Shown here piece after piece: positions 33,043 through 61,866 of a stretch of DNA of 64,000 nucleotides. A program made the translations under genes and the position numbers. Within the stretch, counting starts at the first letter, position 1. The number at the start of each line of letters is the position of its first letter. Source of the DNA: Chiridota heheva (taxonomy: Eukaryota; Echinodermata; Holothuroidea; Apodida; Chiridotidae); the NCBI GenBank assembly GCA_020152595.1, contig JAIGNY010002217.1, positions 481,001 to 545,000 of the forward strand, read 5' to 3'. The notes under the pieces were generated by a model. That model was not told the origin of the DNA. It did not search any database and was given only the letters and a program-made list of their open reading frames with translations.

Positions 33043-34092
33043 TGTCCACCCCGCTCCTATACCTACCCCTCCCCTATACCCACTCCTCCCCCTATGCCCA
33101 CCCCTGCCCATATGACCACCCTCTATTCCCACACCTCCCCTATGTCTACACCTATTACCACCCCTCTATTCCCACACCCCTATGACCACCCCTATGCCCA
33201 CTTCTCCCCTATACCTTCACCTGCCACTATTACCACCCCTATGCCCACTCCTCCCTATGCCAACACCTCCCCTATGCCCACACCTCCCTTATGCCCACAC
33301 CTCCCCTATGCCCCACCCCTATGCCCACACCTCCCCTATGCCCACACCTCCCCTATGCCCACATCTCCCCTATGCCCACACCTCCCCTATGCCCACACCT
33401 TACCCCTATCTTACACCTTTTCCTACGCCCACACCTTCCCCTATGCCCACACCTTTCCCTATGCCCACACCTTCCCCTATGCCCACACCTTCCCCTATGC
33501 CCACACCTTCCCTTATGCCCACCTTCCCTATGCCCACACCTGCCCACCCTTTCCCTATGCCCACCCTTCCCTATGCCCACCCTCCTGCCCCCCTATGCCC
33601 ACCCCCTCCCTATGCCCACCCCCTCCCCTATGCCCACCCCCTTCCCTATGCCCACCCTTCCCCTATGCCCACCCTCCCCTATGCTCACCTCTCACCTATG
33701 CCCACCCCTTCCTATGCCCACCCTCCCCTATGCCCAACCCTCCCTCATGTTCACCCCTCCCCTTATGCTCACCCTTCCCATCCCTATGCACCCCTCCCCT
33801 ATGCCCACCCCTTCACCCCCTCCCCTATGCTCACCCCCCCCACCCCTTTCCCCTATGCTCACCCCTCCCCTATGCCCACCCCTCCCTTATGCTAACCCCT
33901 CCCCTATGCTACCCCTCCCCTCCCCTCCCCCCATGCCCATGCTAACCCCTCCCCTATGCTCACCCCTCCCATATGACTACCCCCTGCTCCCCATCCCATA
34001 TGACTATGCCCACCCCTCCCCTATGCCCACCACTCCCCTATGCCCAACCTCCCCTATGCCCACCCCTCCCCTATGCCCACCCCTCCCTTATG
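33043..34092. repeat. 17-bp C-rich minisatellite, about 60 copies, strongly strand-biased
   Basis: The unit is CCTATGCCCACACCTCC, degenerating to CCTATGCCCACCCTTCC and similar. The + strand has almost no G except in the ATG of each unit, so the array is about 1 kb of C-rich/G-rich strand asymmetry. Long Pro/Pro-Thr-Met open frames are due to the period (51 bp = 3 x 17) and are not supported as genes. Confidence 0.95.
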
Positions 34093-34404: not shown

Positions 34405-37400
34405 CATAGGCGGCGGAACCGCTCCGACCACTCCGACCTTGGTCGGACCAATAATTTGCCCGATAATGATCGAATGGTCCACATAAAGTTGGACCACATA
34501 AAGTTGTGCTTTTTCTGGTTATAAATAGGATCTTAAATTTGACTGAACTATAGTATTATGTTTGCACATTTATAATAAATATGATCCATTTAAGTGCTGC
34601 CCCTTAATTTCCCCTTTTTGGCAAATCACATAATACTGTAATATCAGTAGTCTGAATTCTGCAGAAATTACACAATTGAGGGGGAAAATATCCCTCTCAA
34701 AAATAGGTTGCAAGTCGTATAAAAACGAGAAGCGCTCTTCTGGGTTTTTAATTGAACTTTAAATTCTATGCCCTGTGAAGTGAATATATTTAGCACTATA
34801 ATCCAAATCATTCTATCATTCTTTAATTTTATCACAAATTGTGATTTAATACTGTTTTATTTCTTTTTATTGCGCGATATATGCACACAAGTTCAATAAT
34901 CAACGATATGACGTATTTAATGACGTTTTATCCGTGGCCCCAGGTAGTCTCAACTTTTACAGCGCGTCAAATCTACCGCGCGTATTAGTGAACTCTGGAA
35001 TGTCGGTAAGACCATGGTTATAATTGGACCGAGCCCAGTAAAAAACTCTGGCTAGCCTAGTATACATACAGAAGACGTACGGATTACGTTCAGTATTAAA
35101 AAGCATTACATTATTGTTCCATTTGCTCTTCTACCGGAAAGGAAAGAATACAGTCATTACAATGTCTATCTTACTGTATCTTAAAAAGTGTCCTCCTGAT
35201 AGGCCCTCGGATTCAGATCAGTCAGACGAAGCAATTTCCGAGTCACACTCGGAGTCTATAACACTAGGCCAAGAATCAAAGGATGAAGTCACGCAGGCAA
35301 GTACACCAAGAACCGATTTCAGGAAAAATCAAGATTCACCAAATCAACCAAGAAATCTGAATTTTCCATACCGACATTTTGGGAGGAAAACTGCATTGAA
35401 ACGCAAGTTCCAGCCGAAATGGTTTGATCGATATCCCTGGCTGCATTGCAATGGATGTGATGATGCTGTTGTGTCATATTTGCAAACATGCATAAATAGA
35501 AAACAAACTTTCCAAAAAAAAACAGACAAAGCCTTCATTGAAAAGGGTTTTACCAACTGAAAAGGAAGCAACTTCTGCTTTTAAAAACCACGAGAAAATC
35601 AAATGTCACAAAGAAGCAGTGGAACGTGTGGTTACTTTACCCAAAGTTACTAAAGATATAGGAGAGTCACTCAGCGAAGATCACTCTAGAGAGAAAACCG
35701 AAAGCAAGAGGATGTTAAGGAAATTATTAAAAATGCTCGTTTCTTGGGTCGCCAGGGCCTTCCATTCCGTGGGCACGATGAAAACTAGAAATTCCATTCA
35801 GCTTCTGAACCTAAGCAGCTAAGAGCATGTGATGATCCTTCAGTAAAATCTTGGAGAGAAGAAAACAAACAAATATGTAAGTCATGATATTCAGAACGAG
35901 ATTCTTAATATTTTGACATCTTAAGTACGACGGGACATAGTGGATGATCTTAAAAACTCCCCATTCTTCTCGTTAATGATTGATGAAGCAACGGACACGT
36001 CAAATAAGGAGCAAGCTGTTATCGTTTTAAGGTGGTTGGATAAAAGTATCCTATTGGTTCACGAGGATGCAATTGGACTATATCAAATTCCTGATATTAC
36101 AGCCGATACTCTCGAGAAAGTAGTAGATGATGTATTTAAGAGACTCAATATTTCCTACTTCAAGTGTAGGGGACAGTGCTATGATGGCGCCAGCAACATG
36201 AGTGGAACGAGGAACGGACTAGCAGTAAGAACTCAGGCCCGCGAACCGCGAGCAATATTGATTCACTGCTACGGACATTCTCTGAATCTTGCTGCAAATG
36301 ACGCTATCAAGGGAGAGAGAATCACAAAGAATGCTCTTGAATACACACATGAAATTTGTACACTCGTCCAATATTCTCCGAGAAAAGGGAAATTTTCTGT
36401 AAAATTAAGAATGAACTTCAGCCAGATGGTCCAGGTCTTCGTGTTCTATGCCCGACTAGGTAGACTGTTCGTGCGGCATCTTTAGGTAGACTGTTCTAAA
36501 CAACTACCAAGTACTTCAAGAGCTTTGGGAAGAAACCGACTATGTGAAAGATACAGAAACCAAAGCAAGGATATCTGGGGTCAGAAGCCAAATGCAAAAA
36601 TGGGATTTCTTATAAGGAGCAAATCTTGCACGCCTAGTGCTCAGACACGCAGATAATCTGAGCAAAACTTTACAGAACCCGAATTGACAGCAGCTTCTGG
36701 CCAGAAATGTGCATCAGACACAGTAAAGACTTTGAAGAACAATAGAAAGGAAAGAGATTTCAATCTTTTCTACGATAGAGCAAACAAGTTGGCTCAGGAA
36801 AAAGACGGCGACGGAAACCTCAAATTGGACGTATCTCAACCAGAATTACCGCGGCATAGGAATGTGCCCCATAGAAACGAGACTGGTAATGCTCCTCCGG
36901 AACATGTACAGACAGCCCGTGATTACTACAGATGCCAGTATTATGCTGTTCTGGACAAAATCATCAATGCGATTGAAAGTCGATTTAATCAACCTGGTTT
37001 CACACAGTATCAGCAAGTACAAGAAATGTTGTTGAAGGCATGCAACAACAAGGACTACCAATCCCAGTTAACTGCGAGAACGACTTTCTATGGATCGGAT
37101 TTTGATAACGAGCAGCTGGAAACACAGCTTCAATGTTTATCGCTTAAATTCGCAAACAAATCACCATCACTACAGGATATAATTGACTTCTTTAAGGACA
37201 TGCTTACAGCTGAACAGTATTTTACTCACAAATCTGCACATTACTGTACCTTGTTTTGGTTCTTCCTGCAACCAAAGAGCTTCTGCAACAAATGCAACCT
37301 CTGAAAGATCATTTTCGGCGCTACGTAGACTCAAGTCATATTTAAGTTCAACGATGAGTCAGAGTAGATTAAATGACCTCATGATTCTACAGATCCACAA

Positions 37401-37741
37401 GGAAAGGACAGATTCTCTGAACCTGACGGATACCTTGAATGAATTTGTGAGACATTTAGATCATCGTTCATCTTGGTTCGGCAAATTTTTATAACCCTCA
37501 CCAGTAAACTGGTAAGTACAAAACATATTTTCTTCTATTGCCACCACCCCCCTCCCCCCTCCCACCCTTACACTATTTTGTATGTCATCCGCACAATTTT
37601 GGCACCCATAAAATACCTAGGTATTTGATTGGCTTCAAGATCATTTAATCGAGAACCAAATTCCCGAGGCTCTCCGAAAAAATTCAGGGGTGTTGGTGCC
37701 TGTCAGGTCGGACCAAAAATTGTGACCTTCCGCCGCCCCTG
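34405..37741 (+). mobile_element. hAT-superfamily DNA transposon, decayed
   Basis: The right end, on the minus strand, begins CAGGGGCGGCGGAAGGTC, a hAT-like terminus. The left end has the related CATAGGCGGCGGAACCG at 34405. Just inside each end are copies of GGTC(C/G)GACC words. The 3.3-kb interval encodes a broken transposase with the hAT order: BED/TTF-like zinc-finger region, catalytic region and C-terminal dimerisation domain. No clean 8-bp target duplication was found, and the left terminus has drifted from CAGGG, so the exact left boundary is uncertain. Confidence 0.75.
35162..37494 (+). pseudogene. Broken hAT transposase (ZMYM1 / P52rIPK-like type)
   Basis: The coding signal is spread over at least three frames. 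Segment 35162-35560 starts MSILLYLKKC, has a Ser/Asp/Glu-rich leader, and then FQPKWFDRYPWLHCNGCDDA with later Cys residues, a TTF-type zinc-finger-like block, and KAFIEKGFTN. A frame change at about 35550 is followed by FKNHEKIKCHKEAVER (35570-35640), the His/Cys end of that block. Segment 35940-36485 has FFSLMIDEATDTSNKEQAVI, with the first catalytic Asp of hAT/DUF4371 proteins, and CRGQCYDGASNMSG with IHCYGHSLNLA. Segment 37270-37494 has ATSERSFSALRRLKSYLSST, the hAT dimerisation signature. Stops and frameshifts at about 35560, 35820, 36480 and 37305 rule out a functional protein. Confidence 0.85.
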
Positions 37742-42469: not shown

Positions 42470-43330
42470 AAATTGTGATCGAGAAGGGAGGTGCATGGTT
42501 GAAACAAAAACAAAGTAGAGAGGGGTGGAAGAGGAGAATTAAATATGGTTGTAGAGGAAAGCATGATGAAGAGGAGATAATTTTACCCGGAGGATTTTTC
42601 TGGAAAAACTCAGCAATTGAGTTGTGGGGAGCGAGGGAAGGTCTGGGAAGGCTGTACAGGGGGCAAGCAAGGAGAACGTGATGGATTGTAAGGGTGCAGT
42701 GGCAATTGTTGCAGAGGGGTTGGGGAGTCAATAAGGAAATGGGAGTGAGTAAGGTGGGTGTGACCAATTCTAAGACGGGTGATATGAATGTTGTCGATAC
42801 GAGAGAGGTTGTTGATGGTGGATTTGATCGGAATTGTAGGCTGGATGACATGAAGTTTGTTATCTATTTGGGAGTTCCATGAGGTTTGCCAGCGGTCACG
42901 AACAAGGGAAGCGATAAGCGTTTTGATGTCAGAAAGGGTTTTGGGGGAAAGAGGTAGGGAGGATGTTGAGGGCACGCTTAGCGGCTGCATCAGCCCTGTC
43001 ATCGCCAGGGATGCCAACATGACTGGGTATCCAGAAAAAAAGAACACCTTTTCTCCAGAGGGTGGGAGAAAGGAGTGTCTGGAGGAGGGGGTGGCATGTA
43101 AGGTTATCCCATTTAAGATTAAGTAAAGAAGTAAGAACAGCCTTTGAGTCGGAGAAAATGGCAAAGTGGCTGAGCGGAGAGTAACTCAATAAAGTTGAGG
43201 GCGAGGAGAATGGACTCAGCCTCGGCTGAAAGGATGGATGAGTTAGTCGGGAAGTCTGCTACTGAGGGTGATGTCTTGGATGACGGCAGCAGCAGCTGCC
43301 TGTAACATAAGCAAACATCACGACCATAAT
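42470..43330 (-). mobile_element. Non-LTR retrotransposon remnant (RNase H and C-terminal region, I-type group)
   Basis: Reading on the minus strand from 43330: NSSILSAEAESILLALNFIE, then FAIFSDSKAVLTSLLN with the RNase H DSK motif, then FFWIPSHVGIPGDDRADAAA, the PSHVGIPGN(E/D)RAD signature with its Asp. After a frame change, about 42930-42730 reads the post-RNase H tether (SQIDNKLH, ITRLRIGHTHLTHSH). After a second change comes CNNCHCTLTIHHVLLACPLY, the C-terminal CCHC-like knuckle. This order (RNase H, then a CxxC...H...C end) fits the I/Tad/Ingi-type LINE groups. Reverse transcriptase and endonuclease are absent, so it is a 5'-truncated, frameshifted copy. GC content is higher than the flanks. 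Confidence 0.75.
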
Positions 43331-45951: not shown

Positions 45952-47700
45952 AGTGGTTTAAATGAAGGTAAGTTGGCCAAAACATGAATCTGCATGTTTT
46001 TACACAGCAGGGTAATTGGTCAAATCACACAGCGATTGTGCGCTACATGACTGCATGAGATCTGTTTTTACATCAGCGCGAAGCACCGTTGGAGCAGAGG
46101 GATCTATGGGGGCCTATAGATAACAAACACCAAAAATGATATAATGGAAAACAAAAACTTTATTCAATATGAAAAGAATCATGTACAACCTTTACGAGTA
46201 AAAAATGTCCTAACTCTTTCGCATCACTGTATACAAAGAATATTTACATTAATAAACAAATTAGATTTTGACTGAAGATATAATGTACAAAAATGTCTTC
46301 AAATTACTTTTACCTCCCAACCCTTCCAGCAGTGGGGGCGCCAGGATTTTGATGCTGGGGGTAGAGCAAAAGCCTATACAAATCGGACAAAATATGTCAC
46401 TTTACAAACCTTTATGGGGGAAAAGGGGGGGAAAATCGGTCTCCTGAGAGAAAAGACTGAGGGTGTGAAAAAGTCGCAAAAACAAATTAATTTTGTTGAC
46501 ACGTCACCATTTTGTTGTCAAACGAGGAAAGGCACCAAATACATTAGATTCTGGATGAGTATAAACTGATGTGAGCAAATTTTCAGCAAATTAAACTTGA
46601 CCCAGAATTTCCTTCCTTCTCCATAATTTTTGTTTACATAGGTCTAATTCAGGAGGGAAATAATGACAGTCTCACGTTGTTTGCGTTTGCAAAAATGTCT
46701 TTTTGTCAAACTAATCTTAAAGCTATATATGAACAGACCTCTGAAGGCATAGGCAAGGGGTGGCGAAGTTGGTGGCATTTCGCCATTTTTTTCCAAATGT
46801 ATATCTCTTGTATGCTCACGTTTTGGTATCTTGGTGATTCCCGCCACTTTTAGTGGGCAAATTTGTGTTTGCGACTCCCCCCCCTTCCCTCCCACCACCC
46901 TCACACTATCGGTTGCCAAAATCCGCCCATGTCTGAAGTGTACTTGGCCTGACTACGTCCCCTTAAACAATCGTCAGACGGAGGAAATTTGAAATTAATT
47001 TTTGACCTGTTTGGTATAAATGTACAAATTGAATTTTTCCTCCAAGTTGAACTCCGTGGCACATAAGCATGCAAACTGTTTCACATGGAATGGCAACATC
47101 ATTGTTAACCATTTTCAGAGCTTCCTTTGAAAAGTGCTCATGAATTCACCCACAATTCCTTGCTGTCACCGATTTGGCAAGAATTGTTCAAAATAAAAAA
47201 ATACCCGTCATAAATATAAGTAAGGGTGCAAAGAATTACAATACTCTATGTTAGAAGTACCCAGAGTAAAGCTAGGCAACTTATAAGCATGACCATAATC
47301 GATTCCGGTGTCCGCCGTATTCCGCTGTCTTTTAAAAACATGCAGTTTGCGTCGTCGACGGTATCAATGCAAATTTGGTGCAATATGTCTCTGAAAAATA
47401 AGAAAAGTTTTTATTTTGTTTAAAAAAGAGCACAAATTACAGTAATTAAGAAAAACTAAGGGCACAGAAAATGACGTTTAAAATGTGGGTTTTATATGGC
47501 CCTGAGTCTTGGTGGTGCCACTGTCTTCCTGGTCTTGATCTGCCCTTTGGGCGATTGGCCGAATGCCCGAAAGAAAAGAAAAAGAAAAAAAAACCTATCC
47601 GCTGAAGCCGGACGGTGAAGCGCCTTGAAGTAATATAAAAGGCACTGACAGTAACCAAACAGGCCCGTGTACTCTTTAGGGCCATTTTTATATCCAGGAT
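45952..47700. other. Intergenic DNA, no gene recognised
   Basis: Contains C-rich and G-rich patches near 46420 and 46880 and a segment near 47610-47650 (AAGCGCCTTGAAGTAATATA, AAAGGCACT) that resembles the 3' tails of CR1/L2-type LINEs and their SINEs. This last resemblance is weak. Confidence 0.45.
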
Positions 47701-48511: not shown

Positions 48512-48533
48512 TCAGCAAATGATGAGGGCCACC
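48512..48533 (-). CDS. ADP-ribosyl cyclase gene, tentative last coding exon
   Basis: On the minus strand the acceptor TTTAACAG (AG at 48535-48534) is followed by G-GTG-GCC-CTC-ATC-ATT-TGC-TGA. In the phase set by the upstream exon this adds R-V-A-L-I-I-C-stop, aligning with the family's segment just before its penultimate cysteine (PRAVLFLLC in Aplysia cyclase). Family members usually continue for about ten residues to one more Cys; here the frame stops at once. The TGA is followed directly by GTGAGT, a consensus 5' splice site. The exon is short, so coincidence cannot be excluded. Confidence 0.45.
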
Positions 48534-48901
48534 CTGTTAAAGGCTAGATATCGTGTTAAGGTGGAGATATGACAGATAAAGCAACTTTCTTGACATGAGA
48601 TTCCCCTTTATCAGAAACATTTCTGATGAGGAGAAACCTTTGATGGAAACAGTAAGTTATCAGAGCACTTTTTTTCGCTTATCAACTTCCCTTCGCCCCG
48701 GATGTTGACCTTTTCTTCAGTAGCGCAACAATAGGTCTAGGGAACCGTGGAGAACTTAGCGTTCGGGCCCTCCTAACAAACATACCGCAGTGTCATTGCT
48801 CGGGGCCCCCAAATCTTGGGGCCTCTGGGATTTATCCACCATTCCCACCCTATTGTTGCGCCAATGCCATTCATGCTTAAAACCCTTTATTCCATCCTCA
48901 C

Positions 48902-48988
48902 CTTGGTTGATCATGGCATCTGTGTTCGATCGATTTTTCTTGCAGGATTTCCTGTAGTTGCAAAATGGAGTCGGATTCACAGGTATCT
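48902..48988 (-). CDS. ADP-ribosyl cyclase gene, exon with C-terminal disulfide region
   Basis: The minus-strand acceptor TATCTCGTAG ends at 48989 and the donor GTGAGG begins at 48901. The 87-bp exon continues the frame from 50148 (TT + A = Leu) and encodes DTCESDSILQLQEILQEKSI and then EHRCHDQP. The two cysteines are spaced as in the family (CD38 Cys254 and Cys275), separated by the helix that precedes the C-terminus. The exon ends two bases into a codon. The plus strand also shows an AG...GT frame around 48955-48981, which is a coincidence on the antisense side. Confidence 0.85.
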
Positions 48989-50147
48989 CTACGAGATAAA
49001 AAAACAATATCAACAAATTTTAGTTGATCGATATATCGGAAACATATTAATAAGGAAAACTTATTAATTAAAAGTTTGTAGTCAGTTGCAACAGATTTTC
49101 ATTCAGCCAACAAAGAGACACTCAAAAGGTTCAGTTAAACGATGCAACAGAAAAGGTGAAATACCCTTTCTGTTTTTCTTTGTATCTATTTTTGTACTAC
49201 TTATTCATTTAATCTAACAGTTACAGTATGATTTTAAGCGGCGTATTCAGCTTTTGCTGTCAACGTTTTTGGGACGGAAAAGCCATCACCAAATGTGGGA
49301 GTAAATGGACAATTAAATGGAACGACCATGGACAGGATTTGTCGAAAGTGGGATGGGAGTTAAAAGTGTGTGTGCACAGATGGTGGAAATTGGGGACAAT
49401 CATTATGTTTACACACATTCCAATTGTGAATACACCTGCAATTGGGGATATCCCTATTTGACAGAAAGCTTTCTCCCAATTTCACAGTTTAATGTCAAAT
49501 GCTACTGTATATTGTGGGTATCAAATATTTAAATTTTAAATCTAAATTATATAGCGCCATCAATAATGTGATGTTGCGGTCGTATGATTTTACACCTTCC
49601 CAATTAGAAATATACACATGGGACTTGAATTTTTACATTGGAAGTGTGGACATATTTATCTATCCCCATTTTGATAGAATGCACTTTTAGTACATATGTA
49701 AAAGTGTGTATCCCCACTTCAGTGTATGGTTTCATAGGCTTTCATACCAAGAAGGAATGGGAATTAACACGAATTCTCGGTGGGTATAGCATCTAAACAT
49801 ATCAAAAATTCTGTCATCTTTTTTTGCCGAAGTCCTTTAATTAAGATTTCCCCAGTTGATAGTTTCGTACGTCCCCAATTCCCACCTCCTACAAGTATGG
49901 GTGTGTGTGTGTGGAAGGAAAGGAAGGGGTGGGGGGGGGGGTGTCAAAATCACAACATCACGCTGAGATACACAAAAGTGAGGAGGAAATTCCCCCATTA
50001 GGTCCCCGAAATCCCGCCTATGACCATGACGACAGGGACGGGGAGGGGTTGGTAATTCTGAGGTATATTATGCCAGGAAAAATACCAGAATCATCAGAAA
50101 GCATTATAGGTAAATTTCAAAATGATGAAGGTAGTGTGCATACTTAC

Positions 50148-50240
50148 AATGGTTCATCATCGGGGAGTGTAATCACATATATATCAGCTCGTTTTATCCG
50201 CGAGCTTTCAAAATTTTCCAGTTCATATTGCGCAAAGAAG
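50148..50240 (-). CDS. ADP-ribosyl cyclase gene, exon with catalytic Glu
   Basis: The acceptor TTATTTCAG ends at 50241 and the donor GTAAGT begins at 50147. The 93-bp exon joins in phase (AG + C = Ser) and encodes SFFAQYELENFESSRIKRAD and then IYVITLPDDEP. FF-x-x-YEL-x-N matches Aplysia cyclase SFFGKYELPN; the Glu of YEL corresponds to the catalytic Glu179 (CD38 Glu226), and the Phe before it to the active-site Phe. This is the diagnostic block of the family. Chemistry in known members is cyclisation of NAD+ to cyclic ADP-ribose, hydrolysis, and base exchange to NAADP. Confidence 0.92.
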
Positions 50241-50859
50241 CTGAAATAATAAATATAAAAAGGAGTCACCTACGACCGAGAAATAGGTCTTTATCAGTGG
50301 TCAGGGCACTGAATAACGTATTTCTTCTACTCTACTTTCTCATGTTCTATCTAAACGGCTGTGACTGAGTCTACGACAGCTTCGCACCCATGACAACATG
50401 ATCTGGCTTACTATCGGATCAAAAGAGGTGCCACTGCAAGGATGTAGTAAGGTTTCTAAAAGTGGTGGGGCACAACCTCTGAGGAGGCCCTTCCCAAGTC
50501 ATATGCGTCTGTCCGCCCCCTGTCTGTATATAACAAAGTAAAGTAAAAGGAGCACTTCATCTTCAGAAAGGGGCACATTTCCAATGGGAACACATTATCC
50601 CGTATATGGGACTGACAAAAGTCGTCAGCTTCCTACTATTGGGTTAAGGGGCATTTCATTCTGAAAGGGGCACTTTGGTACCCCACAAAATTGTAAGTAT
50701 TATTTGCGTGTTTGCAAGCACAATGAATGTGAGCTTGTGTCATCTCATCAGGTTTTTTGCGCATGCAAATTTATTTTTAATTTTGATGACGAAACCCTTT
50801 TTGATTAGTCTGCTTATGACAAATTGGTTCATAGTGATGTACTAAAATTGATAACTTAC

Positions 50860-50939
50860 CTTTCGCTTGGATGGAATGCACCGTCTTCTCTATTGCTGTT
50901 AAAGAATATCTTGACATTATTTGTGGCATTAGTGGAAAA
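50860..50939 (-). CDS. ADP-ribosyl cyclase gene, short exon after the second active-site Trp
   Basis: The acceptor TTTGTTTCAG ends at 50940 and the donor GTAAGTTATC begins at 50859. The 80-bp exon starts in phase 0 after ...ASVY and encodes FSTNATNNVKIFFNSNREDG and then AFHPSE, the strand-loop segment that leads to the SFF-x-x-YEL block (compare VTYMVDGSNPKVPAYRPD in Aplysia). NAT is a possible N-glycosylation site, fitting a secreted or extracellular enzyme. Confidence 0.88.
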
Positions 50940-51776
50940 CTGAAACAAATTAAAAAATGACGGCTTATCAATGGAATCAATTTCTGAAAAATGACGGGCC
51001 CTTTAAGAGTGTGATCCAATTGGTTGTTTACACCCTTTGACTTAAGGCATAGGCCTATTTCCGTGCTGAAACATGAAGACAACACAAGTGAAAAACCATG
51101 TTGATATATCATTTTAAAGAAGAGTTATTCAAGTATAAAGCTGTCAGAGACTTGTGTACAAACGACTCACAAAAGTTTAAGTGTGGCACTCACGTTCCCA
51201 CAAAGCGTGTATGTATTCTAATGAAACACACTGAAAATAAGTGTGAAGAGGTGGGTAAAACATGTTCCTATAAACTATATTTTTCAATCCATCTAAATGA
51301 TTTACAGAAGAAAAAGATATTTCTAAAAGGAAATTAATTTTCAAAGAAACATGCCACAAAGGATGTACGAACACACATCCTTGATGCCACTCAAATTCAA
51401 TATAGGGAACTCCCTTTTTCCAGTTTTCAAGCCAAGGTCATTTTATGCAGGTTTTCGTCTGTGTACGTGGTTCTATATTTCCTTTTCGTACATACCTGCA
51501 TTTTCGATATGATGTACAAACAAATATGAGAAGATTGAATACAAATACCACATTTTGGAAATAAAAAAACCCTAAAACAATTACACGCAAATGTAACGTA
51601 TATCCTTTACCGGCCTGACCTCTTCGTCTTATAGAAGACTTAGATATGACGTCATGGATTCTGATTCCTCGTTAGTCCCACCCACTAATCTTATGATTAT
51701 GCAATGATATTTGTAGTAATACTTACCAGCTTACAAATCCTGGCCGATTTGCAAGATACATATAAACATAGGCGTA

Positions 51777-52134
51777 TGGGCACGTGCTTATATTATTATA
51801 TGAAGGGAGAGGGGGGTGGGGAGGAGGGAACGACTTTTTCCCGAAAAAAGAGCGATTGCTCTAATTTTGGGATGGGCTAAATTGCTCAATTGTTGGATTT
51901 TGTTGAAAATTTTATTACCACTAATCAGCATATCGAATACAACGAGTGAAAATTTTGCCTTTTGAACAACAAAAAAGTATCAGACTGATTTTTTTTCTTT
52001 TTTTTCCTTTTCATTTTTTATCAATTCACCTGTCCGCAAAACGCTGCTGCTGCCTGAAAAAATGTAGATTTATCGAAACTAGGGGGGAAATCCCCCTTGC
52101 CCACCCCCCTGCCTCCCCGTCCCATACGCCTATG
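51777..52134. mobile_element. Non-autonomous element with perfect 14-bp inverted ends
   Basis: CATAGGCGTATGGG at the left and CCCATACGCCTATG at the right are exact inverses, 358 bp apart, with no coding content. It lies in the cyclase intron between 50940 and 53250. No clear target duplication. Confidence 0.6.
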
Positions 52135-52616
52135 CGTATACATATCTTGTGTGATCCAAAGGTGAAAGGAAGTTGAAAAATAACGCTTTGAAAAATTCTA
52201 TCAAATCTCTTCAATCACACCAGCTGACTGTGAAAAGACCCTGCAATCCAGTATGAATTAAGCTTAAACCAGTTAGAGCATGCATGCGTCCAGGGCCAGG
52301 GTGAGACGGATAAGCATTTATGGCGCACGTGGTTCCACATGCTGACATGCAGGCAGCGGTACCGCCAAGAGGGTGGAAAGAGGAAAATTTTCCTGGCCTC
52401 GTAACCCTTCCCCCCCATTTTTGACTACCCCACACACACACACACACACACACTTTCGGAAGGCAAATCTGTCCCATGGGATAAAGTGTCATTCGTATAC
52501 AATTTTGTGAGGTAAATGTTTCGCGCTTGCAAAAATGTATTCCATTCACCTTGTTTCTCCTAAGGATACCTATTTCTGAATCCCTCACGAGCCCGAGCCC
52601 TCGGTGCAATTCTTCC

Positions 52617-52772
52617 AGCACCATGAATGGTGATGGTAATGGGGAAGAATCCAACACCATCTATGGTGATGGTAATTCTTCGAGCACCATGGATGGTGAT
52701 GGTAATTCTTCCAGCACCATGGATGGTGATGGTAATTTTTCCAGCACCATGGATGGTCATGGTAATGGGGAG
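52617..52772. repeat. 30-bp tandem repeat, about five copies
   Basis: The unit is CCAGCACCATGGATGGTGAT plus GGTAATTCTT. It keeps a 10-codon period (SSTMDGDGNS) on the plus strand. A (CA)n run lies nearby at 52432-52452. It lies in an intron of the cyclase gene on the other strand; no gene is supported. Confidence 0.88.
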
Positions 52773-53250
52773 ATGAGGTCCGATAATAAACTTTTTCGGC
52801 AAAATAATGTTCTGGTTATGCTTACCCAAGCCCTCCCACTTGCGGCAGTTTTGCCTCTGTCTATCAGTCTGCATGACGGTCAGGCTAATTTACATGAATT
52901 TGACAAATAATTCAAATAATGTCAAATGGCTGATATTCACGTGTTCATAATTGACCAATCGTTTACTTCGAGAATCTTATCGACCAATTACATTTCTTGA
53001 CTGTCTGCACAATTCACGCGCGGTGCAGGGACCAACCGTAAGAAAACAATGCTTTCAAACGCTCATCATACATAAAGGTAATACGCGCGCTCATCGTTAC
53101 TTACAACTTTCGCTCCAGTACATGCTGCTGATTTCTTAGAAGGCAAAATTCCCTCAGCAGTTGATTCAGTGATTAGTCAAAATAAATACTTAAGTCATCA
53201 CGTTTGACGAAATTCGGGTTTAAAAAAGTTCCATTGATTATGATACTTAC

Positions 53251-53493
53251 ATAGACTGAAGCTCTGGCCCAAAATGAGTCCATAGCCCCTTCACCAAAAC
53301 CACAATCCTTTTCACCCGGACACTTTTGTTTTTCAATCCCGTCAGAACTATTTTCAGAATTATTTATACCACAGAAAATCATTCCATTTACGAGGGCACC
53401 GACGAGAGTGTAATCTAACGGCCACATTCTTTCGCCGTGATTGGAGTACGCCCTGACTGTGCTGTAGATATCCCATCCATCCCAGAAATTGGC
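53251..53493 (-). CDS. ADP-ribosyl cyclase gene, main core exon
   Basis: The acceptor TTGTTTTAG ends at 53494 and the donor GTAAGTATC begins at 53250. The exon is 243 bp (81 codons), phase 0 at both ends. It encodes ANFWDGWDIYSTVRAYSNHG, matching the first active-site Trp block (MFWSGVYDEAHDYANTG in Aplysia). Next is MWPLDYTLVGALVNGMIFCG, at the place of the signature TLEDTL...WCG. Then come two further cysteines (KCPGEKDCG) and MDSFWARASVY, the second active-site Trp (SFWGMAS in Aplysia). Compared with TLEDTL, the Glu (CD38 Glu146) is Asp and the following Asp is Tyr, a change in the residues that set the balance of cyclase and hydrolase in CD38. NNS is a possible glycosylation site. Confidence 0.93.
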
Positions 53494-54344
53494 CTAAAAC
53501 AATGAAAAGGGAGAAAATAGTCAGACTTCATATATTGGGTACCCATGCAGTGTCGTGTTTATGGTGATATTGGGGATTACCCCCCCCCCCTCCCCACCTT
53601 CCCTAAAAAAACGTAAATAAACCGTAAAAAGATCTGCAATTTTGGACCAAACGGCTTCAATTCTGGACCGAACGTTTTCAATTTCGGATCAAAAATCTTC
53701 ATTTGTCGATCAAAAATCCTTAATTTTGGAACGAAGTTTACAATTTAGGGGCAGAAATATCCAAGTTAAAATATGAACCAATATCTACGACTTAGTAGAC
53801 CTCAATATTTTAAGCTAGACACGCCCACCCCCTTCCCCCACCCCCTCTCGTACCATCAATAAAAGAACATGAGAAAATGTAAAAACAAATGAACCTGCAT
53901 GTTCATCGACATACAGAAAATTATCTGAAGTTGAAATCATCAGACGCGGACCACTAGCTTAAACCATTCACATGTGACCAATAGATATTTAGATCATAAG
54001 CGTTCTTTATCCACTTCTTCTTTTCTGGGATTCGCCCTGATCTGCTCATTGTAAACTACGCTCCTGGCTACTCTCAGTGAAAGAACATGAGAAAATGTAA
54101 AACATTACAACCTGATGTCCATAGACACATAGAAAGTTATCTGAAGTTAGATTCACCATCGCACGCTGACAACTAGCTTAAGCCATTCACATGTGACTAA
54201 TAGATTTTTAGAGTTTAAACGTTCTTTACCCATTTCGCGATCTGCTCATTGTATTAGAAAGGAGCCCTCCCCCACCCCCTCCCTCTCCGCCCTCCCTCCA
54301 TTAGCGACGACATGGCTTCAGTTGACTTGAAGTAGATTAATGGA
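53494..54344 (-). other. Cyclase intron DNA next to the core exon
   Basis: A C-run of 10 lies at about 53581. Diverged direct repeats occur near 53860-53960 and 54080-54190; each has AAAGAACATGAGAAAATGTA, AACCTG...ATGTCCAT, TTATCTGAAGTT and TAGCTTAA(A/G)CCATTCACATG. The spacing is about 215 bp. Confidence 0.6.
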
Positions 54345-54927
54345 TTAGTTCAGGGGTCAAACAAGTCTATTTGATATGAAAGAGGACTTCAAAATAAACA
54401 AAATGGTAAAGAAAGCATTCAAAATTCTTATTCCGTTAAAGAGATATTTAAGTTTAGAATCAATTGGGTTAGAAACGATTGAAATCAGACTAGTTGTGAT
54501 GTCATAGCCTCAGATTCCCCAAAGTGTTTATGTATTCTATCATATTTAGTCCTGTGATTTTGTGGCTTAAAAACTATTGAATGTGTCAAGAAAGTAGTAA
54601 AACACAATCTTGTAAGGGTTATTATAATATACCCCCAGAAGAAAAGTTGAGGGCAAAAATTAAACTAGTAAAAAAGTTAAGTAAATTTTATTTGAAATAC
54701 ATTCACAATTTAAGTTTTTGTTAAGAATGTGAGGATTAGGACGCCAACTTTCGATATTAGACTTATGGTACTACACAAGTCACTTCTACACAGATAAGAC
54801 AGAGCTTGAAACTAATCTTGTAAATCTCCTCAACGGAATGAGATTTTGAATGTTTTTTTTCACCATTTTGTTTCCTTTGAAGTCCTCTTTCATATAAAAT
54901 AAAGTTGCTTGACCACTGAACTTATCC
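54345..54927. mobile_element. MITE with long inverted arms (family M5)
   Basis: The left arm TTAGTTCAGGGGTCAAACAA followed by GATATGAAAGAGGACTTC is mirrored at the right by GAAGTCCTCTTTCATAT and TTGACCACTGAACTTA. The arms extend about 100 bp inward and include ATTCTTATTCCGTTAAAGAG, which resembles ATATCTTATTCCGTTTAAAA of family M1. Non-coding. Confidence 0.75.
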
Positions 54928-55344
54928 TTTCTTCAGCTTTCTGTAAATCTATTATTGTCAGTCCGTGAGCGTCCCGATAAAGAGAGTAAAAAAGGCAATG
55001 GTAAATTTCAAAAAGCAACTTTTGAATATTCATATCCTACCAGTAGTCAAAATTTCACAGCAGCCAATGGACGTTCGAACAATCCAGAGCGGAAAATGTT
55101 AACAGCGGCTTTAAAGTGTATGATCGAATGACGTCACGTGACAATTTCTCTTATTTGAAAGTTTTTGGGGTTATTGTCGTCATGCAAGATTGAAATATCT
55201 AAACTATATTCTAATTAGATACTAGGAATACCTGGTGCAGGGATTTGTTATCTAAATAACACACCCGTATATCAGTATATCTGGTGTTTGATTGACAGCT
55301 TTCGGGTTCTGCGTGTGCAAATCATTACAATACGAAGCAGTTAA

Positions 55345-56054
55345 AGGAATATTCCCATAAATTCTTATTTTCATAAAAACAATTATAGAGGACTATTAAA
55401 GGACCGACATCGTGTTTAAAATGTGGCGGCGTACATTTTATTCTCAAACGACAGTAATTGGCCTATCAACGTAAGTGCATTGTGTTTCGACCAATCAAAA
55501 CACACGAATTTAATTCGAATTACCTCGTGCGTTAGAGACGAAAACTGGCCTTTTAAAGAAAAATATTGATAAACATTCATTACCATATATTATTCCGTTT
55601 AAAAGATATTGCATTTTAAAGATTTACCGTGTTTGAAAAAGTGTCAAGTGCAGTGTTATAATTGCAAATTCAAAACAATTGTTTATGCGCGCAGGCTACA
55701 TTCATTGTTTCTTCCTCCAGAGTGTAAGGAACATGTGCAGATGGGTAAACAACGTTCTTGTAAAGTGCATGCTATACCCCATATCAATAATTAAACAAAA
55801 CTTGCTTCCAATACTTGAAACATAAGCAGTTCATTTTCATAAGACTACATCAAAATTGTCGTGGACTGGTGGATTTGCGTTGATAAGCAGAAAACGTCAC
55901 ACTGACACTGTACACTGTGAGGTCACTTGTAAATTTTTGGAAATGTAATAACTCCTAAACGGAATCAAATATCAACATGATTTTTTCAGCAATTTGTTTC
56001 TTTAAGACTTCTCTGTCATACATATGAAACTGAAAATCCACGGGAATATTCCTT
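55345..56054. mobile_element. MITE family M1 relative, flanked by TTAA
   Basis: It begins AGGAATATTCCCATAAATTC after TTAA at 55341 and ends CCACGGGAATATTCCTT before TTAA at 56055. Words of the M1 arms (TAATAACTCCTAAACGGAAT, ATTTGTTTCTTTAA) are present on the right. The interior differs from the other copies and holds another TTAAAGGACCGAC start at about 55396 that may be a further nested element. Confidence 0.7.
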
Positions 56055-56080
56055 TTAAAGAAAGTTTTCCGTGGATTTAA

Positions 56081-56652
56081 GGAATATTCCCATAAATTTT
56101 CATTTTTTCCATACATGATAGAGAATTTTTTAGAAACAAAGTGGGAAAAAAACTATATTAATATCTTATTCCGTTAGAAGTTACGAAATTCCTAAAGTAT
56201 TTTTGATTTTAGACAAAAGTGACTGATTGGCAACATCTGTGATATCATAGATACAATTTCAACAAAACGTCTTTTGTATTTCTTTAAAAGTGATTTTGAT
56301 TTTTTGTTATCATTGTAAATGTTGTGTACATCAAAAAAAAAAAAATTGTAAAATTATATATTCCACCTATCTCTATGACAAACCAAAAATGCTATTTGAT
56401 TATGTAAAAAAATGTGGTGATTAAATTCATAAGAAATACATAAGAACTGTGCTGGAATTGCCTTAATGAGTATGATTGACATCACCAAGCTGAAGGACAT
56501 ATACTGTGCGAGGTGTTTTTAAAAACAGTTTTCTACTCTTAAATTGTTATAACTTCTAAACGGAATAGATATTAACAGTTTTTTTTACCACCTTGTTTCT
56601 TTTAAATTTTCTCTATCATATATACAAAAATGAAAATCCATGGTTATAACCT
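56081..56652. mobile_element. MITE family M1, flanked by TTAA
   Basis: It begins GGAATATTCCCATAAATTTT after TTAA at 56077 and ends near TTAA at 56653. It has about 120-bp inverted arms and is colinear with 15882-16427 (shared AAGTGACTGATTGGCAACAT-like, ATGTTGTGTACATC-like and TTGTTATAACTT words) but in the opposite orientation. Only 19 bp separate it from the previous element. Confidence 0.75.
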
Positions 56653-56961
56653 TTAAAACATACCTTCACGTTAAACCTGATTTGTCGTCTCTCTGCATAT
56701 CATCATGAGGCTTTCTGTTGATAGCTCCTAATATCATGCAGGGCAATGTAATGCCAGCTTATGATTATTACGTAACATTGCGCATTTTATCTCCGCATGC
56801 AGACTATGCTTTGACAACGATTGCCTGACTATTACGAACCATTAGGCTAAAATAAAAAGTCTTTTTCGTAGCTATGATTCAAATGGTTTGATTGGTTGAA
56901 ATTTCAAGCTATTGAAACGATTGTTGGCGCTTATTTTACGATATGAATAAAGGAAAAATAT

Positions 56962-57170
56962 AGTCTACCTACTCCGCCAGTGCGCCACAACTGGTTATCA
57001 AAGGCCGTGGACATTGACTTGGTTGTCGATGTTATATCTGTCCGTACGTCGTACCTGTGTTCTCGTCCAGGTCGTATTAAGCGTTTCGTAATAGCATTGT
57101 TACTATCGTAACCAAATACGCAGGCGACGACCCTGTCATTGTAATTGTGTGTTCACTCGTCGTCGTCGCA
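56962..57170 (+). mobile_element. tRNA-derived SINE (S1), head-deleted copy
   Basis: AGTCTACCTACT at 56963 is followed at once by the body (GCCAGTGCGCCACAACTGGT, ACATTGACTTGGTTGTCGAT, GTGTTCTCGTC), so the part with the A and B boxes is deleted. It is followed in tandem by a fuller copy. Confidence 0.7.
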
Positions 57171-57466
57171 GTCTACCTACTAAGGTGTTGCGGTTATCAT
57201 ACATGTCTACAGACCACGAGGCCCTGGGTTCAATCAAGCCTGGGTTGGGTAGACACGCCAGTGCACCACAACTGGTTATCGAAGGCCGTGGACATTGACT
57301 TGGTTGTCGATGTTACGTCTGTGCGTACGTCGTACCTGTGTTCTCGTCCGGGTCGTATTAAGCGTTTCGTGATAGCATTGTCTGATTGTTACTATTATAA
57401 CTGTATAACCGACGAACCCCGTCATTGTAATTGTGTGTTCACTCGTCGTCAGCGAGTATAGCATAG
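57171..57466 (+). mobile_element. tRNA-derived SINE (S1), fuller copy
   Basis: An A-box-like AAGGTGTTGCGGTTATCATA lies at 57182 and a B-box-like GGGTTCAATCAAGCC at about 57228; then comes the same body as the preceding copy. It ends in TGTGTTCACTCGTCGTC, like the copies at 42125 and 57150. The B box carries a small insertion, so Pol III activity is doubtful. Confidence 0.75.
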
Positions 57467-57499
57467 CTCTTTAAGCATAGTCAGATTTAACGTCCCGAA

Positions 57500-57640
57500 A
57501 GCATCCAATGCCGGACATTATATCAAGACGGCCACGGCCTTTGATAACCAGTTGTGAACTCACTGGTTGCAGACCCACCGAGATACGAGCCCGGGACGTG
57601 CGGGTGAGAGGACAAAGCACTAACCACTACACCACGAAGG
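57500..57640 (-). mobile_element. tRNA-headed SINE, minus strand
   Basis: On the minus strand the head reads CGTGGTGTAGTGGTTAGTGC (A box TGGTGTAGTGG), followed by CCCGGGCTCGTATCTCGG (B-box region) and then the S1 body words ACTGGTTATCAAAGGCCGTG. It is an S1 relative with a different, better kept tRNA-like head. Confidence 0.65.
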
Positions 57641-57895
57641 TCTGTATTTAAAATAAAAGACCTCCATTGTTAACAGGTTAATGACGTATGCTCAGGCGGT
57701 TTGGGCGATAACTTCAAAATTATTTTTCAAATCAAAAGTAATGAGTATTATAAAGACATGACGCAATCTACGATTCTCAGAAAATATTGAGTTTACAGGT
57801 TTAGCTGACATCGAATGTTAGGAAAAAAGACTTTAAAATTCTGAGGGCCTTTAATTTGAAAGGTCTCCGTTACGATGTGAATTCTAACCTGTTAA

Positions 57896-58166
57896 AGGAA
57901 ATGTATCGTCAAATTCAGAACGGAACGTCGCCGTGTTGATAACGTCACTTCCGGTTTTTGATTTTCCTTACTGATTGCGAGAAATTAGTGATTTTATCGA
58001 TAATACACGTAGGCTCCTATGTACACGATACATGTTCTGTCCGGCGAATGGGCGATCAATACCATCGCAGATATCTCGCAATCAAGAAGGAAAATTGAAA
58101 ACCGGGAGGGACGTTTACAGTTCACTTCTGAATTTATTTATGGGACGATATCTTTCCTTCAAAGGT
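57896..58166. mobile_element. MITE family M4, copy 3
   Basis: Starts AGGAAATGTATCGTC after TTAA at 57892 and ends GGGACGATATCTTTCCTTCA. It keeps AACGTCACTTCCGG, TTATCGATAA, ATCTCGCAATCAAGAAGGAA and AAAACCGGGAGGGACGTT. Confidence 0.7.
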
Positions 58167-58515
58167 TAAATGTTCTTGAGAATATTCAAACTTTATATTT
58201 GTGATGTATGAATAAGGAATCAACTACAGATTTTCGTGCAATGATTTGGATTTCATTCCAAAATTTCAGGTATAGTGTAAATAATGACTCTCTTCGAAAT
58301 CGATTGAAACAACGGAAGAAATTTAAAGAATTACATTTTGATTTTGAGCTATCCGTCCCAGTCATACATCACAAATGTTGCACAAAACAACAAAAATCAA
58401 TACAATTTTGATCAGTCATAACACAGAAACTTAGTGATATTTTCAAATTTCAAAAAATATTCTTCTTAACTTTTCATACTCTTCAGCTCTTTTAACTGTT
58501 TAACCAATATATAAA

Positions 58516-58745
58516 TTGGTGCAGTAGCTCAGTGGTTTAGAAGTCATACTCGTATTCGAAAGGTACCGAGTTCGATTCCCATCGTACTTTGCTTGCTTCA
58601 GTCCACTCAACTGTATAATGAGTATGTTAATCTGCGATGGACTGGCATCCCGTCCAGGGGGAGTCATACTCTCATCTGACTGCGCCATTGAAACTAGGGA
58701 TAAGCATCGGCTCTATGAGCCTAATGGCTCGGATGGATTTAGCTT
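58516..58745 (+). mobile_element. tRNA-derived SINE, second family (S2)
   Basis: The A-box-like TAGCTCAGTGG lies at 58525-58535 and the B-box-like AGTTCGATTCC at 58569. The body is GATGGACTGGCATCCCGTCC, AGGGGGAGTCATACTC, GGGATAAGCATCGGCTCTAT and GAGCCTAATGGCTCGGATGG. The GATGGACTGG...CCCGTCCAGGG block is shared by SINE and LINE tails in many animals. The head is better preserved than in S1. Confidence 0.8.
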
Positions 58746-60033
58746 TAGAAATATAGAAATTGCTTTGACTTATGTCCATAGACCTTTAATTTAATCGAAA
58801 TAGGTAGGCATATATGAATAAAACGGTCTCTATACTTCAATTCAGGGCCGTAATTGGGACATGTAACGCCCATTTTTCAGCAACATTTTAAAATTCAATA
58901 CATTTTGGGGCAAATTGTTCTCTTGTCCCCAACTTTATGGATAACAGGCCACCCCAGAATACCCCACCCCCTCCCCTCCCCTTCACACACATACACACTT
59001 TTCAGATCACGGCCGTTTTAATGACATATTTACAGTGCAGAAGAAAAAAAAATGACATTCGTCAATATTTCTTCATGAGATAAATTCAATTTTGAAAATT
59101 TGAAATGACAGTTCCCTGCCCAGATGCTCCAATAAAGGTAAGTCACAATCCACGATTCTCAGAAAATATTGACAGTTGCCGCTGACATTACACGTTAAAC
59201 AACCCTCAAGGGTTTACATTAAAAGGTCTCCGCTAAGATGCGACGCACAAATGATTATTTTCGTTGCATTGGCTGAGATTTCATGTCCCTGGAGAAATAT
59301 ATATATATATATTCACAAATAAAGAGCTATTACTTCCACTGCAGCTTTAAAGCATGACATTCGCGAGACGTAACATGGGGTATGGCGAAAATTAAAATAT
59401 CTTCCACACATCTGCATTCTTTGTTGACACACTTCGTGTTCTTCTTAGATTAACGTGGATGCAGCCGAGTGGCGGAACTACGGGGGTGCATGGGGCATAT
59501 TCCCTGACGATATCGCCCCCCCCCCCCACCCTTTGACATTCCCCTATAAAAGTGACATATTTTGTCCAGTTTATAGGCTTTTTTCACCATGAGACTAAAT
59601 TTCCCCTCTCTTGCCCCCAATGACCAAGATCCTGGCGCCGCCAATGACCAAGATCCTGGCGCCGCCACTGTAGCCAGGGGTAGACGGGATTGTGTGCTCC
59701 AGATAATGTGGTAAAAGGTCCAGAAAATATGCTAAAAGATTTCGAGTCGATGACATGTTCTTCCTGTTCAAAACAACTTAGCCTCCGAATAGTGTAATTG
59801 ACTGCCGCATCTTAAACAAGTTTGAAAGAAAATATATATTTGGCCATATTAGGCGATGTCCCCCCCTTCCTCCCCCACCCCCTTCCCTCTCCAATTCGAA
59901 AGTCTTTCACCGAAAACTTATATACAATTTAAATTGTCAATAACAATATATTTCAGACAGGACTTCCGTTTTTCTTCAATCTCACAGAGAAACGATTTAC
60001 AAGTTATTCCAAGTTCCTACACTCATAAAATAA
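58746..60033. other. Cyclase intron DNA, no gene recognised
   Basis: Contains C-rich runs near 58960 and 59517. A possible element lies between GTGGCGGAACTACGGGGGTG (59470) and GGCGCCGCCAC (59658). There is also an 18-bp direct duplication, CCAATGACCAAGATCCTGGC, near 59619-59658. Confidence 0.5.
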
Positions 60034-61012
60034 ATGGGTAATAAATTAACCAAGCTGGGCAGTTTTTTTTTTTTTTTTAGAGCTTTTTTTTAACTAACCG
60101 TTGGTTCCGTATGCCACCTGATAGCTTTTGGGAAACAAATTATTCAACCAAGGTTGAGTACAGCTTGTATTACCTATATGGGTAAAAAAAAGTAACCAAC
60201 AGCTTTTTACCCAGCACATATGGGTAATTTTACCCAGTATTTAGATGTATATTTACTTCTTAGTTGGGTAAAAAAAATAACCAACACTTGTTCACATTTT
60301 TTACCAAGCAATATATGGGTAATTTACCTAACCACATTTGGGCAATTTTACCCAACATGAAGATTTAATTTAATATAGTAGCCTTTCTCTTTATTTAATT
60401 CTTTTGAAAGTTTTGCAGCTTCAACGGTATACGTATTTGAAATAAGTCTTAGCCTAGGTTGTGCTAGACAATCGCATTTCCATCGTCTTTAGCGTTAGCA
60501 TTTTGCTATTATTGGTGTGATTAAATACTTTTAAATACCCCTGAAGCTATCGGTTTATCTCGGACAGATTCTATCTGTGTAAGGTTCAAATAACAAATTC
60601 ATCTGCCATCTTAATCAGTTGATCAAGAAATTATATCACTTCAGTAATTCAGACGTATTCTGTCTGTTCCCGTGGGTGCAGACCACACATATATAATAAT
60701 AAATATTATTATATATCTGTGGTTATATGTCTGTGTAGTGCAGACACTTTTTGGCGGCATCACTATCAACCACTTGCGCGCTATACAAGTCGACATATAA
60801 CATTTCATATTAATAACCAGCTTAGGCAGAACTTTACAACTGCAATGAGAAAAGTTAGTTTTCTGACCAACTTTTGGGTATTCATTCATCTTTACCCAGC
60901 ATTAAAAATTGCCCATGCATGTAGTAAAGATGCGATAAGGACGTTTACCCAAGCGTCACGAGAGTTTTTAACTTTGAACCAAATTGGTTAATTTCAGTTT
61001 TACCCAGCAAAC
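60034..61012. mobile_element. Element rich in GGGTAA/TTACCC motifs
   Basis: The left part GGGTAATAAATTAACCAAGC and the right part AACCAAATTGGTTAATTTCA with GTTTTACCCAGC are loosely inverted. Between 60034 and 60360 the words TGGGTAATTTTACCCA and TTGGGTAAAAAAA repeat about six times in both directions. A TA-rich palindrome (AATAATAAATATTATTATA) lies at about 60693-60713. The borders are approximate. Confidence 0.45.
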
Positions 61013-61736
61013 AGGCAAATGTTGACCAGCCTAAGAGTGAAGACCTAAACCACCTGGTTTTCAAACATGTATTTGCAAAGGGTGTCTCGATGAGATACCT
61101 TAGGGTGCATCCATTCGGATTGACAATCTGCTGTAGCGTCTTTAACTCTTATAAAAAAATGATGAAATCGAGAAGATCCAATAGTCCTTAATTCTTGATA
61201 AGAAATGATTGTCTTGTTTAAGCAAGGTATGAATTTTACCAGGCATTTTCACATGCTTGATATTATCATCAATCTCTCAAAATTGGATTTTCAAAGAGAT
61301 GAATTTTTAACTCAACGACTTATGATGCCTAAAGCTAACAAATGATCCGACAATCTTGTTATTCTGACAGAATTTATTATTTGTGGTTTTTGCGTACAAC
61401 AGACGGAATGAAACATGATATTAGTATACTCTTTGCAATTAATGTCCTTAAGAATTTGGTTCTTGGTGTTTAACGTGAGGTGTAGATTGTATAGGTATCA
61501 AACATGAGTGAGCAATATTCGACTTAAATTCATTGCTTCCAGATTTTAAAGATCTAGCATTTGCATGAAGCAGATTAGTTTTGAATTTTACAAAATAACT
61601 TTTAGTTTTTGAGATATGGCTAATTAAAACTTGATCAGTTTTTAATTTATGCAAAATTTGTGATGTATAAATGGGCGAGCAAAAACACTTTGAAACTCAA
61701 AGCCGCCAACTCTTTGAAGGACATTTATAAACTCAC

Positions 61737-61866
61737 CATATCTTTCGGAATAGTTATTGCAGCTGCGTCGACAAAGGCATCATAATCAGTAGCGGTCACA
61801 TCGCAAGGCGCTTTACCTACCCAGGCCCCGGAGAAGAGCTCCCACAACTCGGTACAATTTTTGTTG
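61737..61866 (-). CDS. ADP-ribosyl cyclase gene, N-terminal-side exon (first found)
   Basis: The acceptor ATATTTGTTACAG ends at 61867 and the donor GTGAGTTT begins at 61736. The 130-bp exon starts with the third base of a codon and ends in phase 0, joining KDM to ANFWDGW at 53493. It encodes NKNCTELWELFSGAWVGKAP and then CDVTATDYDAFVDAAAITIP, aligning with DCSALWKDFFKAFSFKNPCDL of Aplysia cyclase with both cysteines kept. The upstream exon or exons, which should carry a signal peptide or membrane anchor and the GRC motif with the partner of the first Cys, were not found between 61,867 and 64,000 and probably lie beyond the window. The intron to 53493 is 8.2 kb and full of repeats. Confidence 0.9.

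Follow-up and report, generated by a model that had tools for sequence, protein, structure and literature searches.

The question raised by this locus, on the minus strand of a 64,000-nucleotide stretch of Chiridota heheva DNA (the window), is whether it encodes a genuine ADP-ribosyl cyclase and, if so, what its altered signature motif would mean for the products of the enzyme. Judged by its sequence, it is a real ADP-ribosyl cyclase gene, and it is apparently intact from the second coding exon onward. The preliminary description had joined six exons within 48512..61866. Five of them (61866-61737, 53493-53251, 50939-50860, 50240-50148 and 48988-48902, minus strand) have AG/GT borders and in-phase joins and are retained. 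The sixth exon, which has no family homology, and the lower boundary are not, and the last coding exon lies beyond that range. The features are as follows.

61737..61866, minus strand: coding exon NCTELWELF...PKDM, 130 nt, identified by AG/GT borders, phase and tblastn against CD157 (E 2.9e-07)
53251..53493, minus strand: coding exon with both active-site Trp residues and PLDYTL, 243 nt, phase 0 to 0
53404..53421, minus strand: PLDYTL motif at the TLEDTL position (Asp 53415-53413, Tyr 53412-53410)
50860..50939, minus strand: coding exon, 80 nt, phase 0 to 2
50148..50240, minus strand: 93-nt (31-codon) coding exon carrying the catalytic Glu at 50224-50222 within FFAQYE
48902..48988, minus strand: 87-nt coding exon that carries the Cys254/Cys275-type pair and ends within a split Arg codon
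48556..48637, minus strand: sixth exon similar to that first described, FLLIRNVSDKG...SPP and stop, in phase, without family homology
47246..47390, minus strand: corrected last coding exon, 145 nt, with split Arg codon (AG/A), DILHQICIDTVDDANC, GPI-type hydrophobic tail and stop

Enzymes of the CD38/CD157 family use NAD to produce messengers that release calcium. Membership of the CD38/Aplysia-type cyclase family, as first proposed, is borne out by profile and solved-structure matches alike. The corrected protein, a spliced product of 258 aa, scores 170.0 bits against PF02267 (cut-off 25) over positions 26-241 of 241, and the first 25 profile positions would fall within a missing first exon. 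The best solved-structure match is human CD157/BST1 (PDB 1isf; 7.5e-31, 29.8% identity), followed by Aplysia ADP-ribosyl cyclase (PDB 1lbe; 3.4e-27, 29.4%) and human CD38 (PDB 1yh3; about 1e-20, 26.9%). The active-site Trp residues (NFWDGW, SFWARAS) and the catalytic Glu (FFAQYE) were found as described. The 1.1-Gb genome encodes at least four cyclases, the window gene and three paralogues (C3654, C2073 and C1171), and W125, W189 and E226 (CD38 columns) are kept in 4/4. Ten conserved Cys are reported for Aplysia cyclase and sea-urchin SpARC1-3 (PMC1949048); nine are present in the corrected protein, together with four N-glycosylation sequons, and the tenth Cys would fall in the missing first exon. 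The gene looks like an added member of a known family and not a new kind of enzyme. A seven-sequence tree gave no settled branching (bootstraps 47-58), and searches for relatives in viral and prokaryote collections returned 6, 47 and 40 pattern matches, 0 of them confirmed.

At its 5' end the window gene appears to be truncated by the window edge. From the exon sizes, we take exon 61737..61866 to be the equivalent of CD38 exon 2. No first coding exon, where the N-terminal signal peptide of a GPI-anchored cyclase would be expected, was detected by pattern scans of the window and of unmasked sequence in the 20 kb upstream of it, nor by tblastn in that upstream sequence. This is a weak negative, because the scan missed the first exon of two paralogues as well. 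Intron positions and phases are conserved: the catalytic exon has 31 codons, and the last junction splits an Arg codon. Both features are described for snake CD38, whose exon 6 has 31 residues including the catalytic Glu (PMC6368836). The exon 6-7 junction has Leu in the window gene versus the split Arg reported for snake CD38 in the same source. The paralogues have the same intron phases and, in all three, both Trp residues within a single phase-0 exon, whereas exon lengths vary (93, 93, 102 and 105 nt for the catalytic exon); the split codon of the last junction encodes Asp and Gln in two paralogues versus Arg in the window gene.

The choice of last exon determines the C-terminus of the protein. 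A model ending in exon 48637-48556 matches PF02267 with E 6.8e-48 and stops at profile position 230/241. Replacement by exon 47390-47246 raises the score from 163.6 to 170.0 bits, extends the match to 241/241 (E 7.3e-50), restores a Cys-x8-Cys pair and supplies a hydrophobic GPI-type end. Exon 48637-48556 was rejected as the main terminal exon, giving no gain in family match and lacking the last Cys pair; the loss of the last disulfide is an artefact of that exon. Of the 4054 minus-strand AG sites, only 47390 passes a fixed acceptor rule (phase, Cys-x8-Cys, hydrophobic end), with a background of 3/3628 on the plus strand. An earlier, looser scan, which turned up the 47390 exon, had given two candidates within the window gene. 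The spacing of the last exon, 11 residues before the last Cys pair and 8 inside it, is the same in the window gene and two paralogues, each of which also has a hydrophobic C-terminal tail. The last Cys-x8-Cys pair of CD38 has the same spacing as that of the window protein. By inspection, the C-terminus, KDSGIRRTPES-IMVMLISCLALLWVLLT-stop, consists of a hydrophobic tail after a small-residue site. Both terminal exons could be used if alternative splicing produced two C-termini, GPI-anchored from the 47390 exon and soluble from the 48637 exon. The acceptor at 48637 keeps the frame, completes an Arg codon as well and opens 26 more codons, and its pyrimidine content equals that of 47390 (12/16 each); however, the 48637 exon has no family homology, no Cys pair and the lower Pfam score, and we regard such a splicing switch as very unlikely.

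When the protein is aligned with CD38, CD157 and Aplysia cyclase, PLDYTL falls in the TLEDTL columns, with Glu146 as Asp, in agreement with the original reading, and Asp147 as Tyr. TLEDTL is named as a signature motif of the cyclase family (PMC3329556) and is described as invariant in CD38 (PMC6368836). We do not take its absence from the window protein as disqualifying, nor the motif as defining, because CD157 (PLSDVL) and 3/3 paralogues (TMEDTF, SVERTL and TVEMTR in C3654, C2073 and C1171) also lack it. One genome with four divergent cyclase genes has therefore kept TLEDTL in none (0/4), against its invariance in CD38, and an altered TLEDTL is not unusual as such. In the order window gene, C3654, C2073 and C1171, site 146 is D/E/E/E, site 147 Y/D/R/M, site 155 N/N/N/D and site 221 F/F/T/F. 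The emphasis that had been placed on Tyr147 is not sustained, since a position occupied by Y, D, R and M in four paralogues tolerates change, and Tyr at 147 is probably neutral variation. Site 147 varies freely, while 146 is acidic in 4/4 genes; of the two changes singled out at first, only Glu146 to Asp is unique to the window gene (1/4), CD157 having Ser. A six-frame search of the window with a loose TLEDTL-type pattern gave 3 matches; two are on the plus strand, and PLDYTL is the sole minus-strand match. Neither tblastn nor a motif scan detected a second TLEDTL exon or a tandem copy in the window.

Other active-site positions in the window protein resemble Aplysia cyclase: Lys129 and Asp155 of CD38 are replaced by Tyr and Asn, and Thr221 by Phe. 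The Cys119-Cys201 pair is missing, and the His partner of Glu146 (CD38 133) is Arg. Assignment of Tyr129 and Arg133 hinges on a two-residue insertion after FWDG, on which phmmer (against Aplysia cyclase) and MAFFT concur. With CD38 the window protein shares W125, W189, E226 and Cys 82/99/160/173/180/254/275, but Cys119, Cys201, Lys129, His133, Glu146, Asp147, Asp155 and Thr221 are all replaced. Aplysia cyclase, a soluble secreted enzyme, is alike in Tyr129, Asn155, Phe221, Lys119 and the absence of a Cys119-Cys201 pair, and differs in its intact TLEDTL and His133 (PLDYTL and Arg133 in the window protein). CD157 is alike in family fold by sequence, the W/W/E catalytic set, Pro 144 and Phe 221, and differs in PLSDVL and Asp155 (PLDYTL and Asn155 in the window protein). 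It is GPI-anchored (PMC5698419), and the window protein has a GPI-type tail.

Our preferred reading, to which we assign a probability of roughly 0.6, is that an apparently intact gene encodes a disulfide-bonded, N-glycosylated, GPI-anchored, cyclase-leaning ecto- or luminal enzyme; expression, glycosylation, GPI anchoring and product balance are what we infer from sequence. The catalytic Glu (CD38 Glu226) would act on the nicotinamide ribose of NAD held between the two Trp residues, and nicotinamide would depart to leave an ADP-ribosyl intermediate, which would then cyclise to cADPR, be hydrolysed or react with another base. The window enzyme would favour making cADPR and hydrolyse it only weakly, because Asp146, Phe221, Tyr129/Asn155 as in Aplysia cyclase and the lack of Cys119-Cys201 all point that way. 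Replacement of CD38 Glu146 by six residues including Asp is reported to raise cyclase activity as much as 9-fold over wild type, a figure covering the six substitutions jointly and not Asp separately (Graeff 2001, cited in PMC6368836). CD38 E146A and T221F are reported to raise cADPR (PMC7734206), and Phe174 of Aplysia cyclase, equivalent to Thr221, directs cyclisation (PMC3686795). Against this, Aplysia cyclase keeps TLEDTL, so that cyclase behaviour does not require Asp146, and Arg133 is not covered by the mutants considered here.

A shifted product choice is plausible, but the evidence from the CD38 Glu146 and T221F mutants, and from Phe221 here, favours cADPR synthesis and not the base exchange (NAADP) suggested in the preliminary description. 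According to Graeff 2006 (cited in PMC5555186), CD38 repels nicotinic acid at neutral pH through its acidic residues 146 and 155; site 155 is a neutral Asn in the window protein. However, Asn155 is not peculiar to the window gene, because it is found in Aplysia cyclase and 2/3 paralogues, and an acidic residue is retained at 146; a shift to base exchange is improbable.

The activity might also be low. Glu138 and Asp147 of bovine CD38 (human 146 and 155) hold nicotinamide (PMC3329556), and therefore the changes in the window protein could lower turnover; CD157, with departures of its own at 133, 144 and 146, is described as a far less powerful catalyst (PMC5698419). Drift to a receptor-like protein of CD157 style would leave the nicotinamide subsite (133, 146, 147, 155) without its hydrogen-bond network and mainly a role in ligand or partner binding. 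The window protein departs from CD38 at 129, 133, 144, 146, 147 and 155, and CD157 does so at 129, 133, 144 and 146. Yet both Trp residues and the catalytic Glu are retained, site 146 is still acidic where CD157 has Ser, and 129, 155 and 221 are as in Aplysia cyclase, which had the top specific activity in a comparison of three enzymes, about 50 U/mg (PMC8844822). We consider this drift rather unlikely. The more specific form of the cyclase-leaning reading, a natural cyclase-specialised GPI-anchored enzyme in which 146 is not Glu, 221 is Phe and an Arg-Asp pair replaces the His-Glu 133-146 contact, is a tentative proposal that may well prove too strong. If true, it would provide a natural test of how site 146 sets product choice, and its product balance, if measured, would test the published claim, based on CD38 mutants, that the balance of cyclase and hydrolase output is set by residue 146.

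Sea-urchin SpARC1-3 likewise form a multi-gene cyclase family, with GPI anchoring predicted for SpARC2 and SpARC3 (PMC1949048). The present genome, with its at least four divergent cyclase genes, adds to the family record. SpARC4 reportedly has a noncanonical site in which Tyr142 is functional.

The ADP-ribosyl cyclase gene of the window (positions 481001-545000 of C2199, one of 3744 contigs in a 1.10 Gb genome) was described preliminarily as six minus-strand exons joining in phase. Five of these stand, with AG/GT boundaries and in-phase joins. The sixth, apparently an exon from 48637, was rejected as terminal because the match to PF02267 then ends at position 230 of 241. Even with an end of that kind, the product matches PF02267 with an E value of 6.8e-48, which bears out the family assignment, and among solved structures it is closest to CD157 (7.5e-31), then to Aplysia cyclase (3.4e-27), with human CD38 at about 1e-20.

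Coding features of the window cyclase gene (exons assigned on AG/GT boundaries and phase, except as stated)
61866-61737, minus strand, coding exon
53493-53251, minus strand, coding exon
53421-53404, minus strand, PLDYTL motif
50939-50860, minus strand, coding exon
50240-50148, minus strand, coding exon
48988-48902, minus strand, coding exon
47390-47246, minus strand, corrected last coding exon; in-phase acceptor, Cys pair, completes a split Arg codon (AG/A)

The corrected end was found by looking for acceptors that keep the phase and lead into a Cys pair; two candidates within the gene came up. The exon at 47390-47246 encodes DILHQICIDTVDDANC, ending in a hydrophobic stretch of the GPI-signal type, and with it PF02267 is matched to its last position, the score rising from 163.6 to 170.0 bits. 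Eight residues lie inside the last Cys pair and 11 between the preceding Cys and that pair, spacings that are identical in two paralogues and that also occur at the CD38 C terminus. Under a fixed terminal-exon rule, 47390 is the sole pass among 4054 minus-strand AG sites; on the plus strand 3 of 3628 pass. The assembled protein has 258 residues and lacks the first coding exon; scans of the window, and of all but 7.5 kb of the 20 kb upstream, did not reveal it. The same scan returned none for two paralogues, and so may be insensitive.

A family search of the genome itself gave at least six matching stretches at no fewer than four loci, lower bounds because only the best candidates were scored. 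Three further cyclase genes were assembled from DNA, on contigs C3654, C2073 and C1171, the last with three exons only. Last exons of the GPI type were found in two of the three, chosen by family likeness among three candidates for C3654 and four for C2073; the chosen exons bring PF02267 to 241/241 in both. Pairwise identity among the four genes is 28.7-35.1%, save 19.1% between the window gene and C1171, and their identity to CD38, CD157 and Aplysia cyclase is 25.2-36.5%; a tree of these seven gave no resolution. All four genes retain W125, W189 and E226 (human CD38 numbering) and lack Cys201, and Cys119 is missing in all three that are readable. In each, a single phase-0 exon holds both active-site Trp, which we take, from CD38 exon sizes, to be CD38 exons 3 and 4 joined. 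The genes of Aplysia kurodai and CD38 are given eight exons in a passage of PMC6368836.

The altered signature reported preliminarily is confirmed. By phmmer and MAFFT, PLDYTL aligns with PLSDVL of CD157 and with the TLEDTL that Aplysia cyclase and CD38 share. The minus strand of the window holds no other TLEDTL-type hexamer, and the preliminary description therefore passes its own refuting condition, that the TLEDTL residues lie elsewhere in the protein. Pro144 is common to the window protein and CD157; Asp146 and Tyr147 are absent from these three references. The paralogues read TMEDTF (C3654), SVERTL (C2073) and TVEMTR (C1171). Site 147 is thus Y, D, R and M across the four genes, and Tyr147 is not notable; site 146 is Asp in the window gene and Glu in the other three, and Asp146 is mildly notable.

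Excerpts of PMC3329556 on bovine CD38 state that the residue equivalent to Glu146 hydrogen-bonds the first Trp and a His, that with the Asp155 equivalent it holds the nicotinamide amide, and that a Lys pairs with this Asp155 equivalent. By our alignment the His and Lys are human 133 and 129. In the window protein Arg-Asp replaces His-Glu (133/146) and Tyr-Asn replaces Lys-Asp (129/155), Tyr-Asn also occurring in Aplysia cyclase and C3654. The Tyr129 and Arg133 calls depend on where two inserted residues following FWDG are placed; the phmmer alignment to Aplysia and the MAFFT alignment put them at the same point. In C1171 one inserted residue makes the calls at 129 and 133 uncertain. Site 221 is Phe, like Aplysia Phe174, which steers substrate to cyclise, according to part of PMC3686795. 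For CD38 mutants at 146, Asp among them, PMC6368836, citing Graeff 2001, puts cyclase activity at as much as nine times that of the wild type, a figure that covers the set; a passage of PMC7734206 has E146A and T221F increasing cADPR. These residues and published mutants point to an enzyme that would lean toward cyclisation. Against this reading, TLEDTL is intact in Aplysia cyclase, and CD157, which like the window protein departs from CD38 at 133 and 146, catalyses weakly (PMC5698419, in part). Base exchange, the shift suggested preliminarily, is possible, inasmuch as acidic residues at 146 and 155 are said in part of PMC5555186 to repel nicotinic acid, but Asn155 is common to other family members and an acid is still present at 146.

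A fourth sea-urchin cyclase, with a functional Tyr142, was reportedly described by Ramakrishnan in 2010; a full-text literature search returned nothing relevant to it. Sea urchin has a multi-gene cyclase family, three of them cloned (passages of PMC1949048 and PMC2581485), and a starfish transcriptome holds three cyclase transcripts (PMC5584759, in part). The window gene is a new member of an already known family.

Elsewhere in the window, a tandem array of about 156 copies of a 69-bp unit (94% match) occupies 10.7 kb at 5133-15878; its long open frames follow from a unit length divisible by 3 and are not gene evidence. An open frame at 18377-18727 with a hydrophobic tail at its end has no Pfam match and is similar to FNDC3 proteins at their C terminus. 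Remains of a hAT-type DNA transposon lie at 35925-37494 (DUF4371, E 2.9e-17; hAT dimerisation domain, E 3.7e-05), and a minus-strand RNase H match at 42929-43258, weak at 20.2 bits where the cut-off is 25.8, is possibly a retrotransposon remnant. A second array, at 33036-34092, has about 62 copies of the 17-bp unit TCCCCTATGCCCACACC (72% match).
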